Source of the DNA: an uncultured Pseudomonadota bacterium
Lineage (GTDB): Bacteria; Pseudomonadota; Gammaproteobacteria; Methylococcales; Methylomonadaceae
Assembly: GCA_903870545.1 (NCBI GenBank)
Contig: CAIQDI010000010.1
Coordinates: forward strand, 1-64,000
Direction: 5' to 3'
DNA length: 64,000 nt
In this document: positions 5,695 through 38,090 of the stretch, one piece after another
How the letters are laid out: each line of letters starts with the position of its first letter
How positions within the stretch are numbered: the first letter of the stretch is position 1
The notes under the pieces: model-generated
Databases searched by the model: none
What the model was told of the DNA's origin: nothing
The model's input: the letters and a program-made list of their open reading frames with translations, nothing else
Program-made: the position numbers and the translations under genes

Positions 5695-7164
5695 TTATAC
5701 CGAATAATTAGTCGTGGCGGAAACATTTCCACCTTCGCCAATCCAATCCGTGTGGAAAAATTCACCGCGCGGTTTGTCGATACGTTCATAAGAATGCGAG
5801 CCAAAATAATCGCGCTGCGCTTGTAACAAATTCGCGGGCAAATGTTCGGTGCGATAGCCATCAAAATACGCCAACGCCGATGAAAACGTTGGAATCGGAA
5901 TGCCCAATTGAATGCCTAAAATCACGGCTTTGCGCCAATTCACTTCCGATTTTTTCATCACACCAGCAAAAAAGTCGTCGAACAACAAATTTCTTAACTC
6001 GTGATTATTGCTGTAAGCGTGTTTGATATTCTTTAAAAATTTACTGCGAATAATACAACCGCCGCGCCACATCAACGCAATGTCACCGTAATTCAGCGCG
6101 AATTTATATTCTCTTGAAGCCTCACGCATTAAACGGAAACCTTGCGCGTAAGAAATAATTTTTGACGCATACAACGCATCATGAATGGCGTGAATCATTT
6201 CAGCTTTATCGCCAGTGAACGGCGCAATCGGGTGTTTGTGCAAAATTTTTGCCGCTTGAACACGCTCCGATTTTTGCCACGACAAACACCGCGCAAAAAC
6301 TGCTTCACCAATCAATGTCAACGGAATGCCTAATTCCAAAGCATCAATCCCTGTCCATTTTCCGGTGCCTTTTTGTCCAGCGGTATCTAAAATTTTAGCC
6401 AACAACGGCGCACCGTCTTCGTCTTTATAAGCCAGAATATCGATGGTAATTTCCATCAAGTACGAACTTAATTCGCCTTTGTTCCATTCTTGAAAAATGT
6501 CGTGAATTTCGTCAACGCTTAATCCCAAACCTTCTGACAACAATTGATACGCTTCACAAATTAACTGCATATCGCCGTATTCAATGCCGTTGTGAACCAT
6601 TTTGACGTAATGCCCCGCGCCATTATCGCCCACCCAATGACAACAAGGCTCGCCGTCAACGTGTGCGCTAATCGCTTGAAAAATCGGTTTGACGGTTGCC
6701 CAACCGGCACGATTTCCGCCTGGCATCATCGACGCGCCATAATGTGCGCCTTCTTCACCGCCGGAAACACCCATGCCGATAAAGTTTAAGCCTTTTTCAT
6801 TTAGTTGCGCCACGCGGCGATTGGTATCGGTATAAAGCGAATTGCCACCATCAACAATAATGTCACCTTTTGACAACAACGGAACTAACTTGTCGATATA
6901 AAAATCCACCACGTCACCCGCTCTCACCATCATGAAAACCACGCGCGGCGTTTGCAGATTGTCCACCAATTCTTGCAATGAATTGGTGCTAATCATTTCG
7001 GCGTTTTCAATGGCAGCGGTATTTTCAGCTTCTGCCGTGACAAACGTATCGGCAACGCCTTCGGCATATTCATAAACCGCCACTTTGAAGCCGTGGTCTC
7101 GAATGTTGAGAGCCAAATTTTTTCCCATTACCGCTAAACCAACCATACCAATTTGTGCTTGCAT
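5695..7164 (-). CDS. gnd: 6-phosphogluconate dehydrogenase, decarboxylating (copy 1)
   Basis: This 489-residue protein catalyses oxidative decarboxylation of 6-phosphogluconate to ribulose 5-phosphate. Visible motifs are GLAVMGKNLALNI at the NADP-binding N-terminus, GGNSLYTDT near 107, the GVSGGEEGA loop near 133, and [16 protein letters not shown] near 187 with the catalytic lysine. The C-terminal GGNVSATT tail of the dimer-forming long type is present. It is a close paralogue of the next gene upstream (7205-8650), sharing long identical stretches, so the pair is a tandem duplication. Cytoplasmic. Start at 7164 follows AGAGGAAAAT. Confidence 0.95.
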   Translation of the reverse strand: MQAQIGMVGLAVMGKNLALNIRDHGFKVAVYEYAEGVADTFVTAEAENTAAIENAEMISTNSLQELVDNLQTPRVVFMMVRAGDVVDFYIDKLVPLLSKGDIIVDGGNSLYTDTNRRVAQLNEKGLNFIGMGVSGGEEGAHYGASMMPGGNRAGWATVKPIFQAISAHVDGEPCCHWVGDNGAGHYVKMVHNGIEYGDMQLICEAYQLLSEGLGLSVDEIHDIFQEWNKGELSSYLMEITIDILAYKDEDGAPLLAKILDTAGQKGTGKWTGIDALELGIPLTLIGEAVFARCLSWQKSERVQAAKILHKHPIAPFTGDKAEMIHAIHDALYASKIISYAQGFRLMREASREYKFALNYGDIALMWRGGCIIRSKFLKNIKHAYSNNHELRNLLFDDFFAGVMKKSEVNWRKAVILGIQLGIPIPTFSSALAYFDGYRTEHLPANLLQAQRDYFGSHSYERIDKPRGEFFHTDWIGEGGNVSATTNYSV

Positions 7165-7204: not shown

Positions 7205-8650
7205 TTACACAGTGTAAGTGGTCGCCGAAACGTTGCCGCCCTGCCCTGTCCAATCGGTATGGAAAAATTTTCCACGCGCTTGGTCAACACGTTCATAAGT
7301 GTGTGCGCCAAAATAATCGCGCTGTGCTTGTAATAAATTTGCCGGTAATTTCGCTGAACGATAACCATCGAAATACGCCAAAGCCGATGAAAATGTCGGC
7401 GTGGGAATTTCTAATTCAATCCCTAACACGACCGCTTTACGCCAGCCTAAATTGGCTTTTTGCATCGCCGCGACAAAGAAATCATCCAGCAACAAGTTTT
7501 CTAAATCCGGTGTTTTGTTGTAAGCCTGTTTGATGTTGTTCAAGAATTGACTGCGAATAATACAGCCGCCGCGCCACATCAAGGCAATGTCGCCGTAATT
7601 CAACTCAAAATGATATTCTTTCGACGCTTCACGCATTAAACGGAAACCTTGTGCATAAGAAATCAATTTCGCCGCGTACAACGCATCGCCAATTGCGTGA
7701 ATCATGGCGGCTTTGTCACCACTGAAAACCGCGTGTGTTTTTGGTAAACGTTCTGCCGCCCGAACGCGCTCGTCTTTTTGCGAAGATAAACACCGCGCAA
7801 AAACCGCTTCGCCAATTAACGTCAACGGAATGCCCAAATCCAGCGCGTTAATACCTGTCCATTTACCGGTGCCTTTTTGTCCAGCGGTGTCTAAAATTTT
7901 CTCAACTAATGGCGAACCATCGCTGTCTTTGTGTGCGAAAATTTCGGTGGTGATTTCAATTAAATACGAACCCAATTCGCCTTGATTCCATTCGTTGAAA
8001 ACGGCGTGTAATTCGTCCGCATTCAAACCTAACCCTTCCGACAATAATTGATACGCTTCACAAATCAATTGCATATCGCCGTATTCAATACCGTTGTGAA
8101 CCATTTTCACATAATGCCCCGCGCCTTTGTCGCCGACCCAATTGCAACACGGTTCGCCGTCAACGTGTGCGCTAATCGCTTGGAAAATTGGTTTAACGGT
8201 TTCCCATGCGGCAGGATTGCCACCTGGCATAATCGATGGGCCATTTCTCGCGCCTTCTTCACCACCCGAAACGCCGGTGCCGATAAAGTTCAACCCTTTT
8301 TCACTTAAATCGGCGGTGCGACGATTGGTGTCGGTGAAAAGCGAATTTCCGCCATCAACAATAATATCGCCCGCCGATAATAATGGCGTTAATTTGTCGA
8401 TATATTGATCCACCACGTCACCGGCTTTCACCATCAACATAATGATGCGCGGCGTTTGTAAACTTTCGACCAAGGCTTCTAACGAATGCACGCCGATAAC
8501 ATTGGTGCCTTTTGCAGCGGTATTCAAAAACTCATCGACAACGCGAGTAGTGCGATTAAAAACGGATACTTTGAAGCCGTGATCGTTCATGTTAAGCACT
8601 AAATTTTGACCCATTACCGCTAAACCAATTAAACCAATTTGCGCTTTCAT
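7205..8650 (-). CDS. gnd: 6-phosphogluconate dehydrogenase, decarboxylating (copy 2)
   Basis: This 481-residue paralogue of the downstream gnd has the same motifs: [34 protein letters not shown] and [16 protein letters not shown]. The pair differs mostly in the coenzyme-binding domain (residues 30-80) and in the helical C-terminal domain. Both look intact, with all catalytic residues. The 40-base gap to copy 1 holds only a ribosome binding site, so the two are probably cotranscribed. Different cofactor preference (NAD versus NADP) is possible but cannot be read from the sequence with confidence. Confidence 0.95.
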
Positions 8651-16217: not shown

Positions 16218-16946
16218 CTAAACACCGGTTCCAACTTGTAACGAATCGAACCAATCAAGGAAACGTTTCACGTCGTCGCCTTTAAACATGCGCCCATGTT
16301 GTGGAGCTAAAATATCAATATCTAAATTTCTAACGCGATCAACCCACGCGCGTTTGGCTTGATTCGACGGCATCATTCGCTGATGGTAATAACGCATTTT
16401 TTCAACGTGAACATCAAAACGTTCCACAAATACCGGCGCACCAGGTGCTTCAAACGCGGAACCAACGCTACCACACATTAAAATTTTCGCTTGGGGATCA
16501 TACACATGAAACCCACAAGGTGAATGCAAATAATGTGCCGGAATAATTTGTAATTCGACTGATTCTATTTTAATTGTTTCGCCATTATCAGGAATCGGTA
16601 CATATTGAATGGATTCACAACCAAAATGACGAATGTAGCCTTCCCAAAGTGCGGGCGCGTGCAATTTTGCATTCGACAACGCTTGATCCCACAAACCCAA
16701 AGACGAAATTACATCAGGATCTTGGTGCGAAGCGAATAAATCGGTAATTTGTTCAACCGGTGCATGATGCAAAACCGCCGCCATCATCGGTGCAAATAAT
16801 TCTGTACCACCGGGTTCCAGCAATAAACATTTATTCGCTGTACGAACAATATACTGATTACTATCGATAATGTTATCGGGTTTATTTTCGTCGCGTCCAA
16901 ACATAATCCATTGGTGCGCTCCCTCATAAATTTTGGTCATTTTCAT
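16218..16946 (-). CDS. Metallo-beta-lactamase-fold diiron protein, ODP (oxygen-binding) type
   Basis: This 242-residue cytoplasmic protein has the MBL fold of flavodiiron proteins without the flavodoxin domain. The metal motif is H74-Q-D76-P-D78-V, then PAHYLHSP with His138 and His141, then CGSVGSA near 158-164, then the late PQHG with His217. Where flavodiiron proteins have a bridging aspartate (GD), this one has Ser160. Stand-alone proteins of this kind (ODP) have been described as iron and oxygen sensors that act on CheA and are encoded with cytoplasmic chemoreceptors. Here it is the last gene of a chemotaxis cluster, 18 bases after a receptor-tip-like gene, so a sensory role is a strong inference. 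A hydrolase or detoxifying role is the alternative. Confidence 0.75.
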   Translation of the reverse strand: MKMTKIYEGAHQWIMFGRDENKPDNIIDSNQYIVRTANKCLLLEPGGTELFAPMMAAVLHHAPVEQITDLFASHQDPDVISSLGLWDQALSNAKLHAPALWEGYIRHFGCESIQYVPIPDNGETIKIESVELQIIPAHYLHSPCGFHVYDPQAKILMCGSVGSAFEAPGAPVFVERFDVHVEKMRYYHQRMMPSNQAKRAWVDRVRNLDIDILAPQHGRMFKGDDVKRFLDWFDSLQVGTGV

Positions 16947-16964
16947 AAAAACAATGTTCCTATT

Positions 16965-17573
16965 TTAACTATTGCGATAAATCGATAATGCGATGCGACA
17001 CCGTTGCACATTATCATGAATGGTATGCGCGGCTTTATCGACGCTTTCGGCAACGGCTTGTAAACTTTGCAAATACTCGCCCGCTTGCGAGGCTTCAATT
17101 CGAGAGTTTGCCGCAATAACTCGTGCCGCTCGTGCGTGGTGCATCACCGCTTCGAGCTGTCCTAATAATTGCGTCACGTCACGTTTAAATTGACGTTGGC
17201 AATCCTGCATAATGGTTCTTGCGGTTGTAATAGGCTCTTGCATCGAATCGGCATAACACGCCCCGACCGCTAATTTTGCGACTTGTTCAAAACGGTTATA
17301 AGCAGCGGTTCGTCTATATTCATTCACCGTCAACCGATACAATAACAACGCATACACGTTGATATTGGTGACTAATTCAATCGTTTCTTTCGCCAGTTCG
17401 TTAATAAAATCGGTAATCGGTTGAAAACCTTTGGCTTTATCACCCGCTCGAAACGCAATCGCTTTCGCATTCGCTGCCGCTAACGAAATCTCTTTCGCCA
17501 CGACCATCACCGCACTCAACTCCGACGTAATCGAAGCAACAGCAATAAATTGTGATTTTGTCTGACTATTCAT
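16965..17573 (-). CDS. Small cytoplasmic protein with two receptor-signalling-tip-like segments
   Basis: This all-helical 202-residue protein has no membrane segment and no sensor domain. Residues 34-61 (ANAKAIAFRAGDKAKGF onward) and 154-185 (AANSRIEASQAGE onward) both resemble the signalling-tip helix of methyl-accepting receptors, compared with LNASVEAARAGEQGRGF in the receptor at 22310-24631. Shared positions are N-A/S, E-A or A-F-R, A-G-E/D, and the V/I-A...L-A spacing. The glutamates and glycines are only partly kept, so it may be a degenerate or truncated receptor. It lies between cheB and the ODP-like gene, same strand. Inference: an adaptor that couples the ODP-like protein to CheA/CheW arrays. 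Confidence 0.6.
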   Translation of the reverse strand: MNSQTKSQFIAVASITSELSAVMVVAKEISLAAANAKAIAFRAGDKAKGFQPITDFINELAKETIELVTNINVYALLLYRLTVNEYRRTAAYNRFEQVAKLAVGACYADSMQEPITTARTIMQDCQRQFKRDVTQLLGQLEAVMHHARAARVIAANSRIEASQAGEYLQSLQAVAESVDKAAHTIHDNVQRCRIALSIYRNS

Positions 17574-17608: not shown

Positions 17609-18682
17609 TTAGCGCGATCCAGATTTGACCAGCGTCAAAATTTTAGCAGCAATGTCATCTAACGGAACAACGTAATCGACACAACCTAATTTAAATGCCG
17701 CCCCTGGCATTCCCCACACCACACTCGACGCTTCATCTTGCACAATGGTTTTTGTACCAGCTGCCTTCATGGCTTTCATTCCGACTGCACCGTCTGCTCC
17801 CATTCCTGTAAGCAAAACACATACCGCATTTTCACCGGCACATTTCGCCGCCGCATAAAATAGCACATCTACCGACGGTTTATGCCGATTCACTGGCTCA
17901 CCATTTTGTAACTGAATCACATATTGATTATTGCTACGGATGACTTCCATGTGTTGATTGCCTGGCGCGAGATAAATGTTGCCCCACTCCACAACTTGAC
18001 CATGCACAGGAATACTCGCCGTCATTTCTGTTATCGAATCAATATGATTCACAAACGATTCGCTAAACGCCGCTGGCAAATGTTGAGTGATTAGAATGGG
18101 TGGACTGTCGGCGGGCATATTTTTCATGACTACTTTGATTGCCTCGGTGCCGCCTGTCGATGACCCCAACACAATGATTTTATTAAAACCCGTGTGTTTT
18201 CGAGCTGATAAAATTCGCTGCATTGGATTGAGCTCTTTTTCAATGTCGAGCGGTTCCTCGCAGATTTTTATTGCTTGAACATTGGTATTCGCGGCGAGGC
18301 GTACTTTCGCAATAATTTCTTCCGAATAATCGACCAAAGTATTCTCAGCATTTACTTTAGGTTTCGCCACAAAATCGACAGCACCTAACGCCATCGCATT
18401 CAATGTAGCTTCGGCACCGTGTTCGGTTAATGCTGAAATCATCACCACTGGTGTCGGACGCAAACGCATTAAATTTCGCAAAAACGTCAGTCCATCCATG
18501 TGTGGCATCTCAATATCCAATGTTAATACATCGGGATTGAGCTGCTTAATCATTTCGCGGGCGACTAACGCATTTTCCGCTGCACCCACTACTTCAATAT
18601 CAGCGGCGGTATCCAGCACACGGGTTAGCACTTTTCGGATTAACAAAGAATCGTCAATAATCAAAACTCGAATTTTTTTCAT
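17609..18682 (-). CDS. cheB: Chemotaxis methylesterase/glutamine deamidase
   Basis: This 357-residue protein has an N-terminal receiver domain (residues 3-120, with DD at 11-12 and the phospho-acceptor in LTLDIEMPHMDG near 56). A linker leads to the C-terminal methylesterase domain with Ser in GSSTGGTEA near 173, His in ITQHLPAAF near 200 and Asp in TGMGADGAVG near 295. It demethylates receptors after phosphorylation by CheA. It lies upstream of the receptor-tip-like gene and downstream of cheD in the same operon. Confidence 0.96.
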   Translation of the reverse strand: MKKIRVLIIDDSLLIRKVLTRVLDTAADIEVVGAAENALVAREMIKQLNPDVLTLDIEMPHMDGLTFLRNLMRLRPTPVVMISALTEHGAEATLNAMALGAVDFVAKPKVNAENTLVDYSEEIIAKVRLAANTNVQAIKICEEPLDIEKELNPMQRILSARKHTGFNKIIVLGSSTGGTEAIKVVMKNMPADSPPILITQHLPAAFSESFVNHIDSITEMTASIPVHGQVVEWGNIYLAPGNQHMEVIRSNNQYVIQLQNGEPVNRHKPSVDVLFYAAAKCAGENAVCVLLTGMGADGAVGMKAMKAAGTKTIVQDEASSVVWGMPGAAFKLGCVDYVVPLDDIAAKILTLVKSGSR

Positions 18683-18730: not shown

Positions 18731-19366
18731 CTAAAATAACTCAACATCGCCTTCAACCGGCAAATCTTTGATGTTTCTTGAATATTGACGCTCACGCTGT
18801 GCAATCGTGTCGTTATGTAAATCTTGAATTCTCTTCATGCCCACTTTACCCGTTTTTGGAAAATAAATTACTTTGCGTGGATAAATATCACCTAAATCTT
18901 GAGAGAGTAACGCTAATCCTTCTTGGTCAATATAATCCAAAATAAAACTGATATTACTTTTACCTACGTCACCTAATGTCGGAATAATTTTGCCACCGCC
19001 AAACACTTTGATTTCTAAATTTTTACGCTTGCCACCATTGGACAAAATCGTATTGATTAAATGCTCCATCGCATAATTGCCGTAGCGTGTGGCATTACCA
19101 ATCAAGGCATCGCTACCTTGTTTCATTTTCGTCGCCGTTGTTTCGGGTAACATAAAATGATTCATTCCGCCGACCCCTGTTTCTTTGTCGCGCACACACG
19201 CCGAAATACACGATCCTAAAACCGTCGTAATGAGTTCGTTTTCATCGGTGACGTAATACTCACCGGGCAATATTTTTGCCGCAACAATGCCGTAATCTCT
19301 GTCTAGGTAACGATTGATATGATCAAAGCCGTGAATAGACGGCTTGTTAATTTGATTCGAATTCAT
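18731..19366 (-). CDS. cheD: Chemoreceptor glutamine deamidase
   Basis: This 211-residue protein converts receptor glutamines to glutamates. The catalytic Cys is in VLGSCISACVRD near residue 52 and His in GGMNHFMLPE near 69; the family's FGGGKI is near 122. Its start codon follows the cheR stop with no gap. Standard length apart from a short N-terminal extension. Confidence 0.95.
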   Translation of the reverse strand: MNSNQINKPSIHGFDHINRYLDRDYGIVAAKILPGEYYVTDENELITTVLGSCISACVRDKETGVGGMNHFMLPETTATKMKQGSDALIGNATRYGNYAMEHLINTILSNGGKRKNLEIKVFGGGKIIPTLGDVGKSNISFILDYIDQEGLALLSQDLGDIYPRKVIYFPKTGKVGMKRIQDLHNDTIAQRERQYSRNIKDLPVEGDVELF

Positions 19367-20203
19367 TTAGGTGTTTTTTCGATAACTAGTAGTTGTAACT
19401 AACTCAAATTCACTACAAATTTGATTCAAGGATTCTGAATGCCCAATAAATAACCACGATTTACTGGCAAGCAGTTTAGCATACCGTTTTGCCAACGCCG
19501 CTTTTGTTTCACGATCAAAATAGATGAGAACATTACGACAAAAAATAATATCAAAGGGCATTTTCATTTCCCATTCTTGCATTAAATTCAACTGTTTAAA
19601 TTGAATAATTTTTTGTAATTCGGCTTTAACTTTAACGTTATTCGGCGATGATTTACTTTTCATAAACCAACGTTTCAACACCTCTAACGGTAAATCAGCA
19701 ATGCGGTCTTCAGTGTAAATACCATCGGCTGCTGTTTGCAATACATTCGTATCTATATCAGTCGCTAAAATTTTCACATCCCAATCGCGTGGAACATTTT
19801 CTAACAACGTCATTGCCAGCGAATAAGGCTCTTCACCCGTTGAACAACCGGCTGACCAAATACGCATTTGTTTTGTCGCCACATTCCGCACCAATAATTC
19901 AGGAATGACTACGTCGCGCAAATAATCAAAATGATGCTGTTCACGAAAAAAAGAAGTCAGATTCGTCGTAATGGCGTTAATAAATTCAGTAAATTCATGC
20001 TCATGATGGCTGCGTAAATAGTGGCAATATTCTTTAAAATTGTTTAATCCTAACTTTCTAACGCGCTTAGATAGGCGAGAATAAAACATATCAAAACGCT
20101 CATCAGGTACTTGAATACCAGAATAATCATTCGACAATTTTCTCAAAAAATTGAAATCTTCGGCGGTAAATGCAAACTCGCGATTCTTTTCTACAATTGC
20201 CAT
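19367..20203 (-). CDS. cheR: Chemotaxis protein methyltransferase
   Basis: This 278-residue S-adenosylmethionine-dependent enzyme methylates receptor glutamates. The helical N-domain carries LTSFFREQHHFDYL near 85. The SAM-binding motif is IWSAGCSTGEEPYS near 119, followed by ILATDID near 146 and DIIFCRNVLIYF near 218. The receptor encoded at 22310-24631 ends in a WEEF tail that may tether this enzyme. The adjoining cheD start is directly after its stop. Confidence 0.96.
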   Translation of the reverse strand: MAIVEKNREFAFTAEDFNFLRKLSNDYSGIQVPDERFDMFYSRLSKRVRKLGLNNFKEYCHYLRSHHEHEFTEFINAITTNLTSFFREQHHFDYLRDVVIPELLVRNVATKQMRIWSAGCSTGEEPYSLAMTLLENVPRDWDVKILATDIDTNVLQTAADGIYTEDRIADLPLEVLKRWFMKSKSSPNNVKVKAELQKIIQFKQLNLMQEWEMKMPFDIIFCRNVLIYFDRETKAALAKRYAKLLASKSWLFIGHSESLNQICSEFELVTTTSYRKNT

Positions 20204-20239: not shown

Positions 20240-20971
20240 TTAAACGTCAATTACATCAAGCACGTCAAGTAAATTCAATAATTTGGCGGATTCGATAAAC
20301 CGAGAAGATGGGTGAATAATATCTACAATTTTATTCAAACGTGGTGCGTCTTTTTTCAGCGAAACCAATAATTGCAACGTCGCCGTATCAATTGTAGTCA
20401 CATTTGAAGCGTTAATTTCAAGCGTGTCGTATGCCGCCAAAGCCTGTTTAATCGTGTTGTAAAGTTTAGCAATGTGTTTAATCGTTGCGTCCGACCCTAA
20501 TTCAATCAGTGGCTCGACGATTTTTTCAGGAACGCTTTCGATAACTTCCGTTTCAGCGGTTTCCACAAGCATTTCGTTAACTTCGTCAACGATTTGATCA
20601 ATCACTTCTTCATCGGTTTGTTGCGATTCCGTCGAAATTTCAAACTCAATATCTGCGTGTTCTTCGCCATCAATTCTCACATCAATATCGCCATTTTTAT
20701 CAATTATCACATCGATTTCAATTTCTTCCGGTGTGTCAACAATTGGCTTAATTTCGTTTTGTACTTGCGCTACTGTTTGCAATTCGGCGGCGTTATCGAC
20801 GATTTCGCCCGTAACCACTGTCAGTTCTTCCGCTATTTCGACCGGTGCCACTTTCACTTTTGCTCTGGATTTAGTCGTTTTTTTAGCCATTACGACGGGG
20901 GGAATTTCTTCAATCACCTCGCCATCTAGCCACGCTAGCGGGTCGTAACCAATTAAATTATTTGTTGTCAT
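20240..20971 (-). CDS. Acidic STAS-domain protein of the chemotaxis cluster
   Basis: This 243-residue protein has three parts. The N-terminus has a short motif YDPLAWLDG (residues 9-17) and a basic patch near 30-40. Residues 45-155 are a very acidic, probably unstructured linker. Residues about 158-243 look like a STAS domain (YDTLEINASNVTTIDTATLQLLVSLKK), with Thr in place of the usual phosphorylated serine region. Its start overlaps the parA stop by 14 bases, indicating translational coupling. STAS domains act as protein-protein switches. The position beside ParA suggests a role in placing or regulating arrays, which is inference. I do not know a described function. Confidence 0.65.
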   Translation of the reverse strand: MTTNNLIGYDPLAWLDGEVIEEIPPVVMAKKTTKSRAKVKVAPVEIAEELTVVTGEIVDNAAELQTVAQVQNEIKPIVDTPEEIEIDVIIDKNGDIDVRIDGEEHADIEFEISTESQQTDEEVIDQIVDEVNEMLVETAETEVIESVPEKIVEPLIELGSDATIKHIAKLYNTIKQALAAYDTLEINASNVTTIDTATLQLLVSLKKDAPRLNKIVDIIHPSSRFIESAKLLNLLDVLDVIDV

Positions 20972-21731
20972 CTGTCATCACTCTATTTTCAAGAAAATCA
21001 TTGGCAAGGTTACGAAAATCTCTTGCTGAACGGCTTTTAGGACTGTATTCCAAAATGGTTTGCCCAAAACTTGGACATTCCGCTAATAACGCAGTTTCAC
21101 GAATGACCGTCGCCAACACTTGATTCGGAAAGTGCGCCAGTAAAACGTTTAAAACCTGACCAGAAATGCGGCGCGTAGACATATAACGCGAAATAACGAC
21201 CGACAATTTATAGTGTCTTTTTAACGCACCTTCAAAACGTTTAATCGTTGCCATTAAATGTGACAAACCTTGTAACGCGAGAAAATCACCCGCCATCGGC
21301 ACCAAAACTTCTTGTGTGGCAATGAGCGCGTTCGCCACCAATAATCCCGACGAAGGTGGACAATCAATAAAAATAAAATCTTGATCCAGCAATTGCCCGC
21401 GCAACGCATCACGCAACAACACACCGCGTGGTGAACCGGTATTGCTCATTTGTTCCACGTCTTTTAGTTTTGAACCCGCCGGAATCAATTGCAAATTTTC
21501 GCGTATTGGCACCACTTGCTCATCGATGGTTTTTTCTTTGAGTAATGCCAAATCGATGCCGCTAATGTCGTGCGAAATAATACCAAATGAAACCGCCAAA
21601 TGTCCTTGTGGATCAAAATCAATCACCGTGACTTTTTTGCCTGATTCCGCCAGCGCGTGGCACAAATTAGCGGTAGTCGTTGTTTTTCCGACTCCGCCTT
21701 TTTGGTTAATAATCGCGACTAGTCTGGTCAT
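20958..21731 (-). CDS. ParA-family ATPase of the chemotaxis cluster (ParC/Soj-like)
   Basis: This 257-residue deviant Walker ATPase has the P-loop KGGVGKTTT at residues 11-19, IDFDPQGHLA near 38 and the switch FIDCPPSSG near 121. No ParB gene is adjacent. ParA-like proteins inside chemotaxis operons (ParC in Vibrio and Pseudomonas) place chemosensory arrays at the poles. The usual partner ParP, a CheW-like adaptor, is missing here; the overlapping STAS-protein gene may replace it. The start overlaps the stop of cheW by one base. Confidence 0.88.
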   Translation of the reverse strand: MTRLVAIINQKGGVGKTTTTANLCHALAESGKKVTVIDFDPQGHLAVSFGIISHDISGIDLALLKEKTIDEQVVPIRENLQLIPAGSKLKDVEQMSNTGSPRGVLLRDALRGQLLDQDFIFIDCPPSSGLLVANALIATQEVLVPMAGDFLALQGLSHLMATIKRFEGALKRHYKLSVVISRYMSTRRISGQVLNVLLAHFPNQVLATVIRETALLAECPSFGQTILEYSPKSRSARDFRNLANDFLENRVMTDDNK

Positions 21732-22258
21732 TACAGCAATTCATCATAGTCAGAGACTGAATCGGAAATCGTTTCAATATCGTCCAATTCATCCGGATTG
21801 AGCAGTTTATCCACGTCCAATAACATAATCATATTTTTTTTATAAACGTGCATGCCGCGCATATAACGAGTATCTAATTGTGAACCGAAATTAGGGGCTT
21901 TTTTAATTTCACTGAGTTTAATATCCAGCACATCCGATACCGCATCGGCAACAATACCCATCACAAACGTTTCGGCACGATGACGCTTGACACACAACAC
22001 AATCACGACGGTTTTTTGGGTGTAATCGCAATGTTCAAGCGAAAAGCGTTCGCGCAAATCAACGATTGGAATGACCGATCCACGCAAATTTAAAACACCT
22101 TTAATAAAAGACGGCGCATTAGGTATGACGCGAACTGCTTCCCAACCCCTGATTTCTTGTACTTTTAAAATTTCTACGCCGTATACTTCGTTGGCGAGTT
22201 CAAACGTTAAAAACTGTTCAATTTGTTTGCTGTTTACTGCGATGTGATCGGTTGTCAT
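21731..22258 (-). CDS. cheW: Chemotaxis coupling protein (copy 1)
   Basis: This 175-residue CheW (start chosen at ATG 22258, ten bases after AGGA; an ATG at 22294 lacks such a site) links receptors to CheA. It contains YGVEILKVQEIRGWE, the conserved GVLNLRGSVIPIVDLR and a C-terminal MLLDVDKLL. It is paralogous to the second CheW at 24666-25184. The receptor gene lies between the two copies. Confidence 0.92.
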   Translation of the reverse strand: MTTDHIAVNSKQIEQFLTFELANEVYGVEILKVQEIRGWEAVRVIPNAPSFIKGVLNLRGSVIPIVDLRERFSLEHCDYTQKTVVIVLCVKRHRAETFVMGIVADAVSDVLDIKLSEIKKAPNFGSQLDTRYMRGMHVYKKNMIMLLDVDKLLNPDELDDIETISDSVSDYDELL

Positions 22259-22309
22259 GGTTGTCATTTCCTGCGAGTTATATTTGGTGAGCATTGATCG
22301 GTAATCAAA

Positions 22310-24631
22310 TTAAAATTCTTCCCAATCATCGCTATTATGAGTAGGGTATGATTGAACGAGTGCAGCCCTTTTGGGTTTAACAACCGTTTTTAGCGGTGCG
22401 CTATCATCAGGACGCGCCACCCACAGTGATGATTTATCGCTCACTTTAAAGACACTAATAAACTGAGTCATTTTGGCGGATTGCTCACTCATCGCCATAC
22501 TATTCGCTGCCGCCTCTTCGGCTAATGCGGCATTTTGTTGAGTAATATCGTCCATTTGCGTGACAGCTTGATTAACTTGACTAATGCCAGCTGATTGTTC
22601 GTTACTGGAGTTGGTAATGTGACTGACAATCTCACCCACTTTAATAATACTGTCCACAATTTCAATTAACGCCGCACCTGTTTCATTAACAAATGCCGTG
22701 CCAGAACGCACTTTCTGCACGCTAGTTTGAATCAATTCATTACTTTGAGCCGCTGCTATTGCACTGCGTTGCGCTAAATTTCTGACTTCAGTAGCCACCA
22801 CGGAGAAACCACGTCCTTGTTCACCCGCCCGCGCCGCTTCCACTGACGCATTTAACGCTAACAAATTAGTTTGAAACGCAATGTCGTCAATCACGCCAAT
22901 GATTTCAGCAATACGACTACTACTTTCATTGATTTCTTGCATCGCGGCAATGGCAGATTTCACCACGTCACCACCTTTTTCTGCTAATTTCGCAGTAGAT
23001 TGTACAACTTGGGATGCGTGTTGCGTATTGGCTGCGTTACTTTTTACGATACTCGCCAACTCTTGCATACTCGCAGCAGTTTCTTCCAAACTCGCGGCTT
23101 GCTGTTCGACACGATGTGACAAATTATTATTGCCGCTGGCTATTTCTTGTGAAGCATTATTTACAAAGTTAGCCGATTCACGAATTTGCTGAATAAACTG
23201 ATTTATTTTAGTAATTGCCTCATTGATATTATCTTTGCATTGCGCGTAAATGCCCTGGTAATCGGTGAGAATATTGCCCGTTAAATCACCGTCTGCCATC
23301 TTTTGAATAATGGCATTGATGTCAACAAATACGCTTTCAATCATATCCGTTAACCCATTGATGTTTATTGACAACGATTTTGTAAAGCCTTCTTTATCAC
23401 CCAAATGAATTCGCGCACTCAAATCGCCAAATCTAATCGAATTCACTAAATGCTCAATTTCACGTTCGATTTTATTTTCTTGGGTTCTATCCAACCACTC
23501 AGCAATGTAACCGATTCGCGAACCGTCCGCTGAAATCACCGGTTTCACAATAATTTGAAACAAATGCCCCGCTAAGTCGAGATTATAATTAGCCGAATCG
23601 ACCAAATTATCGAGTAATTGACGCTGATATTCAGGGTTTTTATGAAAGACATCGATATTCGAGCCAAGCAATTTATCCGCCCTAAAATTGGGTAACAGCT
23701 TTTTAACATCGGACTCTACTTTTGAAAATAAGGTTTTCGCTGACTGATTCACAAAAATAATATCTAAATCGGCATTCGTAATTAACACGCTAGATTGCAC
23801 ATTTTCTAACCCACTAATAATACGCAGCGCATCAGCAGCGTCTTGATTTAAATGCCCTAAATCGCTACCTACTTTAATACTTGTGCCGTAAATGGTGCGG
23901 AACAAATCGCCAAATTGATCATCACGTCTTAAATTAGGCGGCGCACTAAATTTATTTGCACTGAGTTTTTGTAATTCGCTAATCGATAATGTCACTAATT
24001 GATGGGTTTCATTAGAAACTTTTAAAACTATCAACCCACCTAAAACAGTGAACGCAGCGACGATTGATAGCCAACCATAATCGGCAGAATTCAAAAATTC
24101 GGACATTAAAAAAACGTTCGGCGCGGCAAGTAACACCGATGCCAATGCCAATTTTTTGCCAAGTGAAATTTCTTTGATTTTCTTAAAAAAAGCGGTCACG
24201 CCTGTTGAATGCAACTTAGCTTGATGGGTGACAACGTTATGATACAACTGTTCGGCTTCTTTAATATCCATACGCGAAGGCGCGTGACGCACAGAAATAT
24301 ATCCAATCGAGACACCATTTTCCAAATGCGGCATCGCATTCGCGCTCACCCAGTAAAAATCCCCCGCTTTTGTACGATTTTTCACCACGCCGTGCCACGG
24401 ATTACCTTTTTTGATGGTATTCCACATTTCTTCATAAACAACGGAAAGCATATCAGGATGGCGAACAATGTTGTGCGGCGAGCCAATCAGCTCGGCGCGT
24501 GAATATCCGCTGATGTCTATAAAAGCATCATTCGCAAACGTAATCACACCTTTTAAATCTGTGCGTGTAACTAAAATCGTTCCGGCTTTCATCACGACTT
24601 CGTTATTGGTGACGGGCATATTCATTTTCAT
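22310..24631 (-). CDS. Aer-like methyl-accepting chemotaxis receptor with two PAS regions
   Basis: This 773-residue receptor begins with an Aer-type PAS domain (residues 15-120). It contains NIVRHPDM and NPWHGVVKNR, the sites that bind FAD in Aer. Two membrane segments (about 163-181 and 187-205), a HAMP-like region, a second PAS region (about 275-390) and another HAMP follow. The signalling domain has its tip at AFQTNLLALNASVEAARAGEQ near 620. The C-terminus DDWEEF resembles the NWETF pentapeptide that tethers CheR and CheB. It probably senses redox state or oxygen through flavin. It lies inside the che operon between two cheW genes. Confidence 0.92.
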   Translation of the reverse strand: MKMNMPVTNNEVVMKAGTILVTRTDLKGVITFANDAFIDISGYSRAELIGSPHNIVRHPDMLSVVYEEMWNTIKKGNPWHGVVKNRTKAGDFYWVSANAMPHLENGVSIGYISVRHAPSRMDIKEAEQLYHNVVTHQAKLHSTGVTAFFKKIKEISLGKKLALASVLLAAPNVFLMSEFLNSADYGWLSIVAAFTVLGGLIVLKVSNETHQLVTLSISELQKLSANKFSAPPNLRRDDQFGDLFRTIYGTSIKVGSDLGHLNQDAADALRIISGLENVQSSVLITNADLDIIFVNQSAKTLFSKVESDVKKLLPNFRADKLLGSNIDVFHKNPEYQRQLLDNLVDSANYNLDLAGHLFQIIVKPVISADGSRIGYIAEWLDRTQENKIEREIEHLVNSIRFGDLSARIHLGDKEGFTKSLSININGLTDMIESVFVDINAIIQKMADGDLTGNILTDYQGIYAQCKDNINEAITKINQFIQQIRESANFVNNASQEIASGNNNLSHRVEQQAASLEETAASMQELASIVKSNAANTQHASQVVQSTAKLAEKGGDVVKSAIAAMQEINESSSRIAEIIGVIDDIAFQTNLLALNASVEAARAGEQGRGFSVVATEVRNLAQRSAIAAAQSNELIQTSVQKVRSGTAFVNETGAALIEIVDSIIKVGEIVSHITNSSNEQSAGISQVNQAVTQMDDITQQNAALAEEAAANSMAMSEQSAKMTQFISVFKVSDKSSLWVARPDDSAPLKTVVKPKRAALVQSYPTHNSDDWEEF

Positions 24632-24665: not shown

Positions 24666-25184
24666 TTAGTTTTCGGATTGTTCTAACGATTCCAACGTCA
24701 ATAATTTGTCCACATCCAGCAACATGACCATGCGTTCATTAACTGAGACGAGACCGTTAATAAATTCATTGCTGACTTTTGTGCCAAAATCCGGTGCGCC
24801 TTGGATTTCAGATTTATCAATACTAATCACGTCGGAAACAGAATCCACCACCACACCCATAATGCGAGTGTGATTACCGCTGCCCGTTTGTAAAACAACG
24901 ACTACCGTCAGCGGCGTATATTCGACTTTACTAAGACTGAAACGTTCGCGCAAATCGATAATGGGGACAATCGCCCCGCGCAAATTCACCACGCCTTTTT
25001 CATAAGGTGGCACATTTGGCACGCGCGAAACGGGTTCCCAACTTCTAATTTCTTGTACCCGTAAAATATCAACGCCGTATTCTTCTTTGCCCAAAACAAA
25101 ACTCAAATACTGAATGGTAATGGAGGTTTCTGAATTGGTTTGCGCGACTTCTTTTACCGCTCGTATTTCGTTTTCTGGTGACAT
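24666..25184 (-). CDS. cheW: Chemotaxis coupling protein (copy 2)
   Basis: This 172-residue CheW contains YGVDILRVQEIRSWEPVSRVP, KGVVNLRGAIVPIIDLRERF and a C-terminal VMLLDVDKLL. It is closely related to copy 1 and is encoded just downstream of cheA. The two CheW proteins may favour different receptors or the receptor-tip-like protein. Confidence 0.93.
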   Translation of the reverse strand: MSPENEIRAVKEVAQTNSETSITIQYLSFVLGKEEYGVDILRVQEIRSWEPVSRVPNVPPYEKGVVNLRGAIVPIIDLRERFSLSKVEYTPLTVVVVLQTGSGNHTRIMGVVVDSVSDVISIDKSEIQGAPDFGTKVSNEFINGLVSVNERMVMLLDVDKLLTLESLEQSEN

Positions 25185-25217: not shown

Positions 25218-27281
25218 TTAGCGCACAGATAAGCGAACTAAACCAGGAACATCGAGAATCAACGCCACCGAACCGTCGCCCAAAATAGTTGCTCCCGATA
25301 CGCCTTCGACACGCCGATAATTGGCTTCCAGTGATTTGATAACAACTTGTTGTTGACCCAATAATTCATCGACTAAAAACCCACACAATGCGCCCTGTCC
25401 TTCTACCACGACAATCACACCTTCATTCGATTTGGTCGCTGCGCCGGATTTTACGTTGAAAATTTCACGCATTCGGATAATGGGTAAATACTCGCTGCGT
25501 AATTTGAACGTTTCGCCTTTGCCCGCTACTTTGTTGAGCATTTTTTCGGTGATATTGATAGATTCAATAATTGACACCAGCGGTACAATGTAGGTTTCAT
25601 CGCCCACCGCGACCGATTGACCGTCTAAAATAGCCAACGTTAACGGCAAATGAATAGCAATCGTTGAACCTTTGCCCAGTTCAGAAATAATATCGATATT
25701 GCCGCCCAACGATTGAATGTTTCGACGTACTACGTCCATTCCCACGCCACGCCCTGAAATATCGGTCAACTTTTCGGCGGTTGAAAAACCTGGCATGAAA
25801 ATCAATTCCAGAATTTGTTTGTCGGACATAATCGTTGCTTCATCGACCAAGCCTTTTTCAATCGCTTTCGCCAACAATTTCGCTTTATCCATGCCGCGTC
25901 CATCATCGACAATTTCAATCACGATGTGACCGCCACGGTGATAGGCTTTCAGCTCAATCGTCCCCATTTCTGGTTTGCCCGCCGCAATCCGTTCCGCCGG
26001 CATTTCAATTCCGTGATCCAAACTGTTACGAATCAAATGTACCAACGGATCGTTAATCAATTCGACGACAGCTTTATCGACTTCGGTATTTTCACCGACC
26101 AATTTCAGCGTAATTTTTTTGTGCAATTGCGTACTAATATCATGCACCAGGCGCGGGAAACGACTGAATACGAAACTAATCGGCAACATTCGGATATTCA
26201 TCACACTTTGCTGCAAATCACGAGTGTGACGTTCCAATTGCGCCAAGCCGCGTTTCAGCTGCCCGACTTTATCCATGGTGAAATTTTCGCCAATCAATCC
26301 GAGCATCGATTGCGTAATCACAACTTCACCCACCATGTTAATCAACGTATCAATTTTATCGGTATCAACACGAATGGAACTGGAGGCTTTCGGGGTGTTT
26401 TTAGACGGATCGGATTCAACGACAACAGCCGCTTTTTTAGCGACGGATTCAACCACGTCAGGAGTGGCGGTCACTACTTCAACGACTGGCGCGGTGGGTG
26501 TAATTTTTGGTTTTTTGACTTTTTTAGGTTTTGATAGTGGCGTGATTTCTAAAGCACAATCGTCTTCAACCCAACTGAAAATTTCCCGAATGGCGGCTTC
26601 TTTCGCCTCAGTGACTAATTTTAATTCCCAAGAGATATTACATTCTTCGGGGTCTAATTCATCAAAAGGCGGTATATCTTGGATATTAACATTCGACGTA
26701 AATTCGCCTAATCCATTAAGTTCTCGAAACAAACGCACCGGATCATTGCCGGTTTTGAGCAAATTCAAATACGGACAAAAGGCGATTTTCCAACCTTGTT
26801 CCTCGTCAATTTCGGTGATTTCTTCTGGTTTGAGTGGCGCGGCGATGGGTGCAACTTTATCAATTTTCACCGCTTCGGGCGCATTGCCAGCTGAACCATT
26901 CAATTCTATTTCTAACGCTGCTTGATGCTTCGCCGCGCTAACCATATTTACATCTTCTTCATTTTGAATTGAAGTCAGCATTTCGCGCAAACAATCGACC
27001 GAACCCAACAATACGTCAACTGCCTGTTTGGTGACTGGTCTACGCCCGTCACGCATTTCATCGAGTAACGTTTCCATGATGTGCGTGTATTCCGCCACCA
27101 CGGTAAAACCGAACGTGCCGCTGCCGCCTTTGATAGAATGAGCCGCTCTAAAAATGGTGTTAATGACTTCGGAATCAATGTCGCCAATATCGAGCGACAA
27201 CAACCCAGATTCCATCGCTTCCAAACCTTCGAAACACTCTTCAAAGAAAACTTGATGAAATTGTGACATATCAATAGACAT
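25218..27281 (-). CDS. cheA: Chemotaxis histidine kinase
   Basis: This 687-residue kinase has P1 (residues 1-105, phosphorylated His in FRAAHSIKGG) and a P2-like response-regulator-binding domain (about 164-252). A basic, Pro/Val-rich linker follows, then P3 dimerisation (about 300-370). The P4 ATPase has LIRNSLDHGIEMP, DDGRGMD and GRGVGMDVV, and the P5 CheW-like domain is at about 550-687. It phosphorylates CheY and CheB. A separate Hpt protein copying its P1 domain is encoded just upstream. Confidence 0.97.
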   Translation of the reverse strand: MSIDMSQFHQVFFEECFEGLEAMESGLLSLDIGDIDSEVINTIFRAAHSIKGGSGTFGFTVVAEYTHIMETLLDEMRDGRRPVTKQAVDVLLGSVDCLREMLTSIQNEEDVNMVSAAKHQAALEIELNGSAGNAPEAVKIDKVAPIAAPLKPEEITEIDEEQGWKIAFCPYLNLLKTGNDPVRLFRELNGLGEFTSNVNIQDIPPFDELDPEECNISWELKLVTEAKEAAIREIFSWVEDDCALEITPLSKPKKVKKPKITPTAPVVEVVTATPDVVESVAKKAAVVVESDPSKNTPKASSSIRVDTDKIDTLINMVGEVVITQSMLGLIGENFTMDKVGQLKRGLAQLERHTRDLQQSVMNIRMLPISFVFSRFPRLVHDISTQLHKKITLKLVGENTEVDKAVVELINDPLVHLIRNSLDHGIEMPAERIAAGKPEMGTIELKAYHRGGHIVIEIVDDGRGMDKAKLLAKAIEKGLVDEATIMSDKQILELIFMPGFSTAEKLTDISGRGVGMDVVRRNIQSLGGNIDIISELGKGSTIAIHLPLTLAILDGQSVAVGDETYIVPLVSIIESINITEKMLNKVAGKGETFKLRSEYLPIIRMREIFNVKSGAATKSNEGVIVVVEGQGALCGFLVDELLGQQQVVIKSLEANYRRVEGVSGATILGDGSVALILDVPGLVRLSVR

Positions 27282-27474: not shown

Positions 27475-27861
27475 TTAAACGATTGCGGCGTGCATTTTGG
27501 CACGATGTATTGCGGCATTCGCGTCGTCTAGCACTTCTTTATTTTGTAACTGTTTAATCATAGCGCGAATAAATTCAACCGATTCCAACATCACGCCGAT
27601 ATTATCAGGATTTGTTTGCTTGGTTTGATCGCGCATTTCACCTAAAAGATGCTCCATTTCTTTCGCATACTCGGCGACAATATTAAATTCTAACATCGCA
27701 CAGCCGCCTTTAATGGTGTGTGCGCCACGATAAATGGTATTCATTCTTTCTTTATCAAACGCATTCAAATCGATGCTATTTAACTCCGTTTTCATAATGT
27801 CTAAATTTTCCAAACATTCTTCAAATAAAATATCGTGAAATTCTGTCATATCGATGGACAT
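27475..27861 (-). CDS. Stand-alone Hpt protein derived from the CheA P1 domain
   Basis: This 128-residue protein consists of one histidine phosphotransfer domain with the phospho-accepting His in YRGAHTIKGG near 48. From MSIDM to GEMRD it aligns residue by residue with the first 80 residues of the neighbouring CheA. It therefore looks like a duplication of that P1 domain. Inference: it may act as a phosphate sink or as a relay between CheA and the CheY encoded next to it. It lies 49 bases downstream of cheY. Confidence 0.88.
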   Translation of the reverse strand: MSIDMTEFHDILFEECLENLDIMKTELNSIDLNAFDKERMNTIYRGAHTIKGGCAMLEFNIVAEYAKEMEHLLGEMRDQTKQTNPDNIGVMLESVEFIRAMIKQLQNKEVLDDANAAIHRAKMHAAIV

Positions 27862-27910: not shown

Positions 27911-28273
27911 TTAGCCTAACACTTTCAATAACGTTTTTAACAGCTGATCCGGATTAAATGGTTTAACCATCCAGCCCGTTGCCCCTGCTTCTTTGCCTTG
28001 CGTTTTTTTATCCATGCCCGATTCAGTGGTCAACATAAGCATTGGCACATGTTTATATTGGGGTAATTGTCGAAGATCTCGAATGAGTTCGATGCCATCT
28101 TTGTTAGGCATATTCACATCGGTGACAATGCAATCAAACGTCCGCAATTTCGCTTTTTCTAACGCATCGACACCGTCTTCGGCTTCTTCAACGTCATAAC
28201 CCGCTGTTTTCAACGTAAACGCGACCATTTTTCTCATTGAGGCTGAATCATCCACTGCAAGAATACTCGCCAT
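27911..28273 (-). CDS. cheY: Chemotaxis response regulator CheY
   Basis: This 120-residue single receiver domain has acidic residues at 7-8 (DDS). The phospho-acceptor Asp is in FDCIVTDVNMPNKDG near 51-60, Thr in LMLTTES near 81 and Lys in MVKPFNP near 103. It carries the signal to the flagellar switch. It is the first gene of the cluster, and a sigma70-type promoter lies upstream (28321-28350). Confidence 0.95.
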   Translation of the reverse strand: MASILAVDDSASMRKMVAFTLKTAGYDVEEAEDGVDALEKAKLRTFDCIVTDVNMPNKDGIELIRDLRQLPQYKHVPMLMLTTESGMDKKTQGKEAGATGWMVKPFNPDQLLKTLLKVLG

Positions 28274-35948: not shown

Positions 35949-38090
35949 CTAAATTCTCAAAATCGTGTCAACCAAACTTTTTTCCGTCGTAATCGTTTGC
36001 GAACTCGCTTGATACGCTTGTTGCGCTACAATCAATTTCACTAATTGTTCCGACAAATCCACGTTTGAATTTTCAATCGCTGACGATTGAATCGTGCCAA
36101 AATTGTTGTCGCCGCCTGCCCCATAAATCGGCATGCCAGAATCCGCCGTAGACATCCACGTCGTCGAACCCACTTTTGCTAAATCTTGGTTGCTGGGGAA
36201 ACGCGCCAAGGCAACTTGACCAATCGGCTTTGCAAAACCGTTGCTGTATTTGGCGTACACAATCCCTTTTTTATCCACATCCACACCCGTTAAATTACCA
36301 ACCGGCAAACCGTCTTGTTTTAAATCGTTCACGGTGAAAGGCGTTGAAAACTGCGTGGTATTCGCTAAATCAAGGCTGAAACTCATTGCTTTAACTTTGA
36401 TGTCCGGATTGATTGCTGAAATGTCGATGCCCCCAAAATCAATTTTAGTATTGGGAAATTTAGCCGTCATACCTGGCAATCCCAGAGCTGCCGCCGCTTT
36501 TGCCGCATCTGCGGCGGTAGTCAGCGCATCGGTTGCAATCTGATCCGATGTCGCCCAATCCACTAAGGCAATAGCCGCCACGGCTTCAGCCGACGTTTTA
36601 TTACTCGCCGCCGTTGACATGGCGACGGTGGATGCGTCTACCTCGGTTCTTGCACTTTGTAGCGCAACCGTTACCGGTATCGTGCCATTTGTCGCTACCA
36701 GCGCGATATTGTCAAAATAAAGTTTTGCATCGTCTTGAAGTGCCTGTGCAATCAACAATGGATCTGTCACTGCTGCATCGGGCGTTGCCGGTGTTAAAAT
36801 GGCACCTTGCAATCCACTATTGTAAGCATCCGCCGCATCTTTCTTAGCTTGTGCAGCAACCAGTTTGGCTTGAGCCGAGGTGTCAGCGGCTTGAAATCCT
36901 GCCTGCGTCGCCGCTGTCCCCGTACCTGCGGCAACCGCATCTATCGCTTTTTGAAGATCTGCTGCAGTTAGATCCGCTCTTGTCTGGGCTGCCGTCAAAT
37001 CTGAAGTGGCGGTTTTTAAATCCACAGAGGCTTTGGTGACAACGGCATCGGCAGCCTCACGGGTTGCCTTGGCGAGCTGTGTCGTTGCGGTTGCTGTCCG
37101 TGTAATGGCGGCATTAGACACAACACCTGCCGTCACAGATGCCGCCGCCGCTTTATCCGAGTTAATTTTCGCCAGTGCCGCCGTAGAAACCGCTAAATCA
37201 GCCGTTGTGGCTACTGGTGATACTTTTGATAAATGCCCTTTATCGTCAAAAACGACTCGCGTTGGACTGGTGGTAATCGTTCCCGCTGGTAAAGGTGTCG
37301 CACCGGTAGCGGGAACAGGCGGAATCGCATAAACGTCTTCTTGCACGCCTGGCTGAATACTTCTGCCATCTATAAACGTGTAAACATCCCATTCATTTGG
37401 CACGGCGGTTTTGCAAAAATACGCTGAGGCAATATGCGCGTTACCTAATGAATCGTAAGTGGTAATCGATGTGGTATGCGTGTACGTTTTTGGATCGGGA
37501 ACATAAGGTGCCGTACCCGGTGTTGTATAAGCGAATGGCGTAATGGCGATTTGTGCCGAACCGTTCAAATTCAACTGCATATCGATATTGCCGGTTTCAG
37601 TCGGCGAACCTTGATCGGTGTTAAGTTTCAGCGGTAATTTAACGCCCACGTCGAAACCGTCCGCCACGTTTATTCCCGTTGGTTTGAACGCCAACAAATA
37701 CCGCCCATTATCATCCACAACGTTCCCGACGTTATTCAAATGAAATGCGCCGTTGCGGGTAAAAGAAGTCGCTTCTAGCGGTTTATCGGGCGTTGTCGGG
37801 TCAATGGCATCGCCCATCGCAAAAAAACCTTCACCGCTGAGAGCTAAATCTAACGAGTTGGCGGTGGGTTCGATGTTGCCTTGTTTAAATTGCTGCGCGA
37901 TAGCAGAAACTTTCACGCCTGTTCCGACGGTGCTTTTGCCTACTGCGCCCAAACTACTCACATACACATCACCAAACTGAGCGCGTGATTCTTTAAAACC
38001 AGCGGTTTGTGAGTTCGCAATGTTGTTGCCGGTGACGGATAAGTTGGTGGCGGCAGCTTTTAGACCGCTTAATGCTGTTGAAAAACCCAT
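35949..38090 (-). CDS. flgE: Flagellar hook protein with large alanine-rich insertion
   Basis: This 713-residue hook subunit is far above the usual length of about 400-450. The N-terminal (MGFSTALSGLKAAATNLSVTG) and C-terminal (QLVKLIVAQQAYQASSQTITTEKS) rod/hook motifs are intact, as are the D1/D2 regions up to about residue 292 and from about 545. Residues about 293-543 form an Ala/Thr/Asp-rich block with long helical, coiled-coil-like segments. No other hook protein part resembles it. The reading frame is open throughout, so it is likely functional and displayed on the outer hook surface. Confidence 0.94.
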   Translation of the reverse strand: MGFSTALSGLKAAATNLSVTGNNIANSQTAGFKESRAQFGDVYVSSLGAVGKSTVGTGVKVSAIAQQFKQGNIEPTANSLDLALSGEGFFAMGDAIDPTTPDKPLEATSFTRNGAFHLNNVGNVVDDNGRYLLAFKPTGINVADGFDVGVKLPLKLNTDQGSPTETGNIDMQLNLNGSAQIAITPFAYTTPGTAPYVPDPKTYTHTTSITTYDSLGNAHIASAYFCKTAVPNEWDVYTFIDGRSIQPGVQEDVYAIPPVPATGATPLPAGTITTSPTRVVFDDKGHLSKVSPVATTADLAVSTAALAKINSDKAAAASVTAGVVSNAAITRTATATTQLAKATREAADAVVTKASVDLKTATSDLTAAQTRADLTAADLQKAIDAVAAGTGTAATQAGFQAADTSAQAKLVAAQAKKDAADAYNSGLQGAILTPATPDAAVTDPLLIAQALQDDAKLYFDNIALVATNGTIPVTVALQSARTEVDASTVAMSTAASNKTSAEAVAAIALVDWATSDQIATDALTTAADAAKAAAALGLPGMTAKFPNTKIDFGGIDISAINPDIKVKAMSFSLDLANTTQFSTPFTVNDLKQDGLPVGNLTGVDVDKKGIVYAKYSNGFAKPIGQVALARFPSNQDLAKVGSTTWMSTADSGMPIYGAGGDNNFGTIQSSAIENSNVDLSEQLVKLIVAQQAYQASSQTITTEKSLVDTILRI

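Follow-up and report, generated by a model that had tools for sequence, protein, structure and literature searches.

Organization of the locus

The window described here is a 64,000-nucleotide stretch of DNA that contains a chemotaxis cluster encoded on the minus strand, with the gene order cheY-Hpt-cheA-cheW-MCP-cheW-parA-STAS-cheR-cheD-cheB as read from the open reading frame list and Pfam matches. Successively, these are cheY (27911–28273), a gene for a free Hpt protein resembling the P1 domain of CheA (27475–27861, recognized by profile matches), cheA (25218–27281), the first cheW (24666–25184), an Aer-type receptor gene (22310–24631), the second cheW (21731–22294), genes coding for a ParA-like ATPase (20958–21731) and a STAS-domain protein similar to anti-sigma factor antagonists (20240–20971), and then cheR (19367–20203), cheD (18731–19366) and cheB (17609–18682). 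Two further genes on the same strand follow cheB at the cluster end. The first (16965–17573) encodes a 202-residue protein that we have named TIP2, in which profile comparison detects two chemoreceptor-tip segments and for which AlphaFold predicts a single-chain four-helix bundle, and the second (16218–16946), situated 18 bases downstream of TIP2, encodes a 242-residue ODP-family protein with a metallo-beta-lactamase fold (Pfam PF19583, with corresponding PDB matches). The two reading frames, their strand and the 18-base gap are exactly as reported in a preliminary description made from the DNA sequence alone, and its placement of the pair at the end of a chemotaxis operon is correct for the window. 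The host genome encodes pmoA and the host is therefore an aerobic methanotroph of the Methylococcales, in keeping with the earlier suggestion of a probably aerobic methylotroph.

The Aer-type receptor, which the preliminary description had also placed in this cluster, has an N-terminal PAS domain, membrane segments, an Aer2-like signaling part and a C-terminal DWEEF tether; residues 262–773 match the NCBIfam Aer2 model with an E-value of 1.8e-136, and PAS and MCPsignal are also matched. The cluster as a whole resembles the F7 stage 1 chemosensory cluster of Gammaproteobacteria, including that of Methylomicrobium alcaliphilum (Ortega et al. 2020, PMC7184735), in having cheY, cheA, two cheW genes, an Aer2-like receptor, cheR, cheD, cheB and a STAS gene, the F7 class being assigned here by gene order and identity and not by CheA phylogeny. 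The DWEEF tether likewise fits the motif -x-[HFYW]-x(2)-[HFYW] at the C-terminus of the stage 1 Aer2-like receptor (PMC7184735). However, the window has extra parA and Hpt genes and lacks, at the place after cheB, the mcpA-like gene, second STAS gene and serine phosphatase gene of stage 1 clusters, TIP2 following directly instead, and neither TIP2 nor ODP is among the stage 1 genes listed in PMC7184735. The free Hpt protein, encoded between cheY and cheA, is a possible phosphotransfer shuttle or decoy.

TIP2 contains two receptor-tip-like segments

The first tip of TIP2 spans residues 27–61 (KEISLAAANAKAIAFRAGDKAKGFQPITDFINELA; 17391–17495, minus strand) with a hairpin turn at Gly44, and the second spans residues 148–179 (RAARVIAANSRIEASQAGEYLQSLQAVAESVD; 17037–17132, minus strand) with its turn at Gly165, both being located by profile alignment with MCP tips. 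Between them is a mid turn at residues 102–108 (17250–17270, minus strand), identified from the AlphaFold secondary structure and the conservation profile, which is the family-variable part and the predicted distal end of the protein. The two arms are symmetric, with 61 residues between Gly44 and the mid turn and 60 residues between the mid turn and Gly165, and conservation peaks around the tips and is lowest near the far turn.

The match of a single TIP2 sequence to MCPsignal is weak (21.1 bits, below the curated cut-off of 34.6), and 25 of the 27 family members match it at E-values up to 0.01. When compared by hhalign with a chemoreceptor tip profile built from the receptor tips of the retrieved loci, the N-terminal half matches with a probability of 94–96% (E-values of 1.8e-7 with the wide alignment and 1.9e-9 with the narrower one) and the C-terminal half with a probability of 82–89% (2.4e-6 and 1e-5, respectively); in both halves an Ala-Gly-Asp/Glu sequence is in register with the receptor hairpin turn, as expected from the two receptor-tip-like segments noted in the preliminary description. 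The hhalign scores are 43.9 for tip 1 and 37.1 for tip 2, compared with 11.7 and 14.5 for the reversed controls. These controls are cleaner than the block-shuffled ones, which reach a maximum of 30.4 for tip 2, and a maximum of 44.0 with a mean of 24.6 for tip 1, the latter maximum probably arising because the 7-residue blocks preserve pieces of the motif. Direct profile comparison of the N-terminal and C-terminal halves gives a weak match (probability 2.6%, E-value 0.018), and we therefore do not claim an internal duplication.

The best sequence matches of the TIP2 family profile in the PDB are short Thermotoga-type receptor fragments (4jpb, 3g6b and 3ur1, with E-values of about 1e-9) that include a fragment of TM14, the receptor coupled to the ODP of Thermotoga maritima. 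A dataset note in PMC6746300 describes 4jpb as this TM14 fragment in complex with CheA P4-P5 and CheW. Judged from these alignments, TIP2 is receptor-like by virtue of its hairpin tip, which it has in two copies, and it is not a full receptor. We considered and rejected the possibility that it is an ordinary receptor fragment or a pseudogene, as omega is 0.02–0.035 and two separate tip regions are fully conserved.

The tips nonetheless depart from those of receptors at positions of interest. Throughout the main TIP2 family, the position of the conserved receptor Glu is occupied in tip 1 by a hydrophobic residue (Ile, Leu, Val, Ala or Met), and tip 2 mostly has Gln at the receptors' Arg position; we take these to be E385 and R388 by Tsr numbering. 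With these changes, the normal trimer contacts may fail in TIP2. Loss of the E385-equivalent acid in the whole main family, and of R388 in most members, would suit a decoy or cap that binds CheW or CheA, is unable to form trimers of dimers, and under the control of ODP uncouples or displaces receptors and so dampens the array, rather than serving as an additional receptor. It would also be consistent with the altered CheA order in arrays of Treponema denticola upon ODP deletion, where CheA becomes more ordered (PMC7666581). However, the surroundings of tip 1 are very strongly conserved (NA.....RAG..A.GF.PIT..I), and we regard a decoy role as unlikely.

Predicted fold of TIP2

The AlphaFold2 model of the window TIP2, made with 44 relatives, has a pLDDT of 87.5 and a pTM of 0.79, with helices at residues 3–101 and 109–197 and dips in confidence at residues 41–50 and 161–170, corresponding to both tip turns. 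A second AlphaFold model, of a 55%-identical member (L110; pLDDT 86.2), has an explicit helix break at tip 2. By DSSP the helix is unbroken at tip 1 in both models, and this, together with the dips at both turns, leaves the tip geometry uncertain. Both models can be superposed on four-helix bundles designed as single chains (Z of 16.6–18.0, rmsd of 1.8–2.0 Å over 173–175 residues) and also on a ROP dimer re-engineered as one chain, with the caveat that helical bundles resemble one another. Uninterrupted helices of 100 residues, which is how the DSSP strings would read, were rejected because the four-helix superposition at 1.8–2.0 Å calls for a reversal near the tips. The models thus imply a single-chain up-down-up-down four-helix bundle, a topology that would place both tips at the same end, and we infer that TIP2 imitates the tip of a receptor dimer fused into a single chain. 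There are no receptor-tip structures among the best 50 VIA-align matches for the TIP2 model, and MCP signaling domains are present only among the weaker Foldseek matches, such that the link between TIP2 and receptors rests on the sequence profiles.

Two signaling tips in one chain are also a feature of DosM, described as a double signaling domain receptor (Briegel 2016, cited in PMC6978683), which belongs to the Vibrio cholerae F9 system and stabilizes arrays with two baseplates. By this likeness TIP2 could be a two-ended receptor bridging two baseplates, but in contrast to DosM it is small, a predicted four-helix bundle of 202 residues with its tips predicted at one end, and we consider such bridging very improbable.

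The ODP protein has an altered putative metal site

The ODP gene product matches PF19583 over its full length (E-value 1e-63, 215 bits, curated cut-off 27.2), and the host genome has no other match to this family; in the PDB it matches entries named 'oxygen-binding diiron protein' with E-values of 6e-58 (6qrq/6qwo) and 2e-50 (6qnm/6r9n). The ODP-like identity proposed in the preliminary description is thus secure, the Pfam score being far above the cut-off. Alignment with the solved ODPs, together with the general flavodiiron pattern, provides the identities of the metal ligands. The motifs HQDPD (H74, D76 and D78; 16713–16727, minus strand), LH and PQHG are intact in the window protein, and CGS is present where the solved ODPs have SGD, so that Ser160 (codon at 16467–16469, minus strand) replaces an aspartate that presumably corresponds to the bridging carboxylate ligand of the flavodiiron proteins. 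The solved ODPs have this aspartate, and among the TIP2-linked ODPs it is missing only from those of the window genus, in which 14 of 14 distinct ODPs have Ser at the aligned position, and of Methylocucumis, which has Lys; the two are sisters in the ODP tree and a single loss is therefore enough. The ODP of Methylobacter tundripaludum, for example, retains SGD and a complete metal site. HQDPD, AHYLH or AHYMH, SGD and PQHG are common, by alignment, to the ODPs of all 24 TIP2-linked loci outside Methylococcales, and the solved ODPs have HQDPD, SGD and PQHG too, but with AHFLH or SHFMH at the AHYLH/AHYMH position. A second and independent ligand loss is seen in one genus (g4; L024 and L025), in which HQDPD is changed to NPDPD and LH to LY (AHYLY) with retention of the TIP2–ODP pair. 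We also note that Methylobacter favarea (L102) has the same identities as L024 and L025.

ODP is reported to bind iron and oxygen and to interact with cognate receptors (PMC6978683). With Ser160 in place of the bridging-type aspartate, it is doubtful that a di-iron site senses oxygen in the window genus, and the oxygen sensor of the preliminary description is accordingly in question here. On the alignment, we classify the window protein as a PF19583 member and do not file it as a working di-iron oxygen-binding protein. Without a bridging-type aspartate, the site in the window genus probably differs in its ligand or its redox chemistry, and it could be mononuclear, contain a different metal, or be apo. 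The ODP gene is nevertheless still needed in this genus, given that its omega (0.026) is as low as that of Asp-keeping relatives (0.029), in comparisons with dS near saturation. The replacement of the aspartate by Ser or Lys at such a low omega, and the independent ligand loss in L024 and L025, would fit an ODP in the window genus that is a pseudo-sensor or senses another ligand, with the pair keeping a structural or regulatory role. The intact HQDPD, LH and PQHG motifs argue otherwise, as does the derivation of ligand identity from alignment and the general flavodiiron pattern, and we give this reading somewhat less than an even chance.

The TIP2–ODP pair is a conserved unit

TIP2 is followed directly by ODP at every locus with enough contig, both in the order to which the host belongs and beyond it, which agrees with the earlier claim that ODP is coupled to a sensor-less receptor-like protein. 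Outside of Methylococcales, the TIP2 profile identifies 24 loci in other Gammaproteobacteria, and ODP follows TIP2 in all 24. At 22 of these there is no cheA, cheW, cheR or cheB in the flanking DNA (up to about 8 kb, and less at contig ends), and most of the neighboring genes examined have housekeeping roles, among them lpxK, tatD, and those for ATP synthase and pyruvate kinase. The conserved unit is the TIP2–ODP pair and not the che cluster, and a position at the end of a chemotaxis operon does not hold as a general rule, as the pair mostly occurs by itself, either surrounded by housekeeping genes or on a plasmid. The pair in Pseudoalteromonas xiamenensis is annotated as 'chemotaxis protein' and 'MBL fold metallo-hydrolase', and that on plasmid pPN3F2_1 of Shewanella aestuarii (L200) has a transposase gene and a TraG-like gene nearby, raising the possibility that the cassette may be mobile.

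Where the pair is associated with che genes, the arrangements differ. A search for it in related che operons, as the preliminary description had proposed, places the pair directly after cheB in the window genus and in Methylobacter, and after cheB-mcpA-STAS-phosphatase in other Methylococcaceae (L124–L126), which have the F7 stage 1 order with the mcpA-like, STAS and SpoIIE-type phosphatase genes after cheB, plus the pair; most of the wider loci, as noted above, lie outside che clusters. In our family f7 the pair precedes STAS-cheY-cheA, and a sister TIP2 lineage lies within another che cluster (L116, L117, L186 and L187).

ODP paralogues, 33–38% identical, directly adjoin GGDEF/EAL proteins in several Methylococcales (L127–L134, e.g. 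L127:7386–10338), which suggests that these paralogues feed c-di-GMP signaling. The preliminary description had held that ODP-like genes in non-chemotaxis contexts of close relatives would count against its reading, and these paralogues are such genes, whereas the orthologues are always found with their partner. In one Methylococcaceae genome (L121:6961–11350) an ODP paralogue and the GGDEF/EAL gene beside it are directly followed by a TIP2–ODP pair, outside of a che cluster.

The two genes have diverged together. All TIP2-linked ODPs, from both lineages, form one clade with 100/100 support in the ODP tree, apart from the GGDEF/EAL-linked ODPs, and TIP2 and ODP distances are correlated with a Mantel r of 0.84 (0 of 2000 permutations). 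The pair is under strong purifying selection, with omega of about 0.02–0.035, and this conservation, together with adjacency in all relatives with enough contig, excludes chance. Among 369 gammaproteobacterial genomes sampled, F7-like CheA (a label assigned by an identity threshold of about 49% or more over the catalytic part) is present in 19 of 20 genomes with TIP2 and in 85 of 348 others (p of 2e-10, uncorrected for phylogeny).

The absence of che genes at 22 of the 24 wider loci, beside housekeeping genes, invites consideration of a role for the pair outside chemotaxis, for example as an oxygen- or NO-reactive protein with a helical partner that was inserted into che clusters by chance. 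However, the partner has receptor-tip homology, two distinct lineages are located in different che clusters, and the co-occurrence with F7-like CheA is near-exclusive, and we find such a role improbable.

A sensor/adaptor model for TIP2 and ODP

We propose that TIP2–ODP is a two-gene sensor/adaptor cassette that couples a soluble metallosensor to the F7 array via a receptor-tip mimic, which we consider the best explanation of the data and slightly better than an even bet. TIP2 would be a soluble receptor mimic, without a membrane or sensor part, and it would dock by its two-tip end in the F7 array, at the baseplate formed by CheA and CheW, as suggested by its homology, its place in the operon and its occurrence alongside F7-like CheA. 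The ODP protein would bind TIP2, CheA, or both, and by analogy with T. denticola its metal or oxygen state would shift the kinase output; in the window genus, where the metal site is without the bridging-type aspartate, the ligand or redox chemistry of this step would be altered. This explanation is based on homology, the predicted fold, the pairing of the genes and their co-divergence, co-occurrence, selection and ligand loss, whereas we infer the docking, the direction of the effect and the ligand sensed. A broader proposal, which we advance tentatively and as something less than probable, would place TIP2 in a class of array components of its own. In this view the two tips make up a pseudo-dimer within one chain, which would form the socket through which a soluble metallosensor plugs into F7 arrays; socket and sensor would move together as a cassette of two genes, plasmids included, and the arrangement would survive loss of the sensor's di-iron site.

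The pair is like the ODP systems of T. denticola and T. maritima in that an ODP-family gene is coupled to a soluble receptor-like protein with neither a transmembrane nor a sensing module. It differs from them in that their partners are MCP homologues with one tip, whereas TIP2 carries two within a single chain and falls below the MCPsignal cut-off, and in that the window-genus ODP is without the bridging-type aspartate. The T. denticola ODP and its cognate sensor-less receptor are TDE2498/TDE2496 (PMC7666581, which cites Muok et al. 2019). Campylobacter CheO was also considered as an ODP-like protein and was rejected, as it has no known sensory domain according to its authors (PMC9665402).

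It is unclear what the ancestral F7 arrays of Gammaproteobacteria (stages 1 and 2) do (PMC7184735), and a sensor/adaptor pair that is conserved, encoded on its own and found in step with F7-like CheA is a concrete candidate for an input to them. If TIP2 is indeed a single-chain copy of the receptor-dimer tip, it would be a natural soluble tool for the engagement of CheA and CheW by tips, and the Asp-loss clade is a natural experiment on the need for the metal site. What makes the system interesting is a partner that is putatively pseudo-dimeric, a pair that stays together where no che cluster surrounds it, and a clade in which a metal ligand has been lost.

Other features of the window

Elsewhere in the window, two similar 6-phosphogluconate dehydrogenase-like genes lie in tandem (5695–7164 and 7205–8650), and the gene next to them, in the same orientation, is glucose-6-phosphate dehydrogenase-like. 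A flagellar hook-type protein (35949–38090) has a long, alanine-rich and helical-looking insertion in the middle of the protein.
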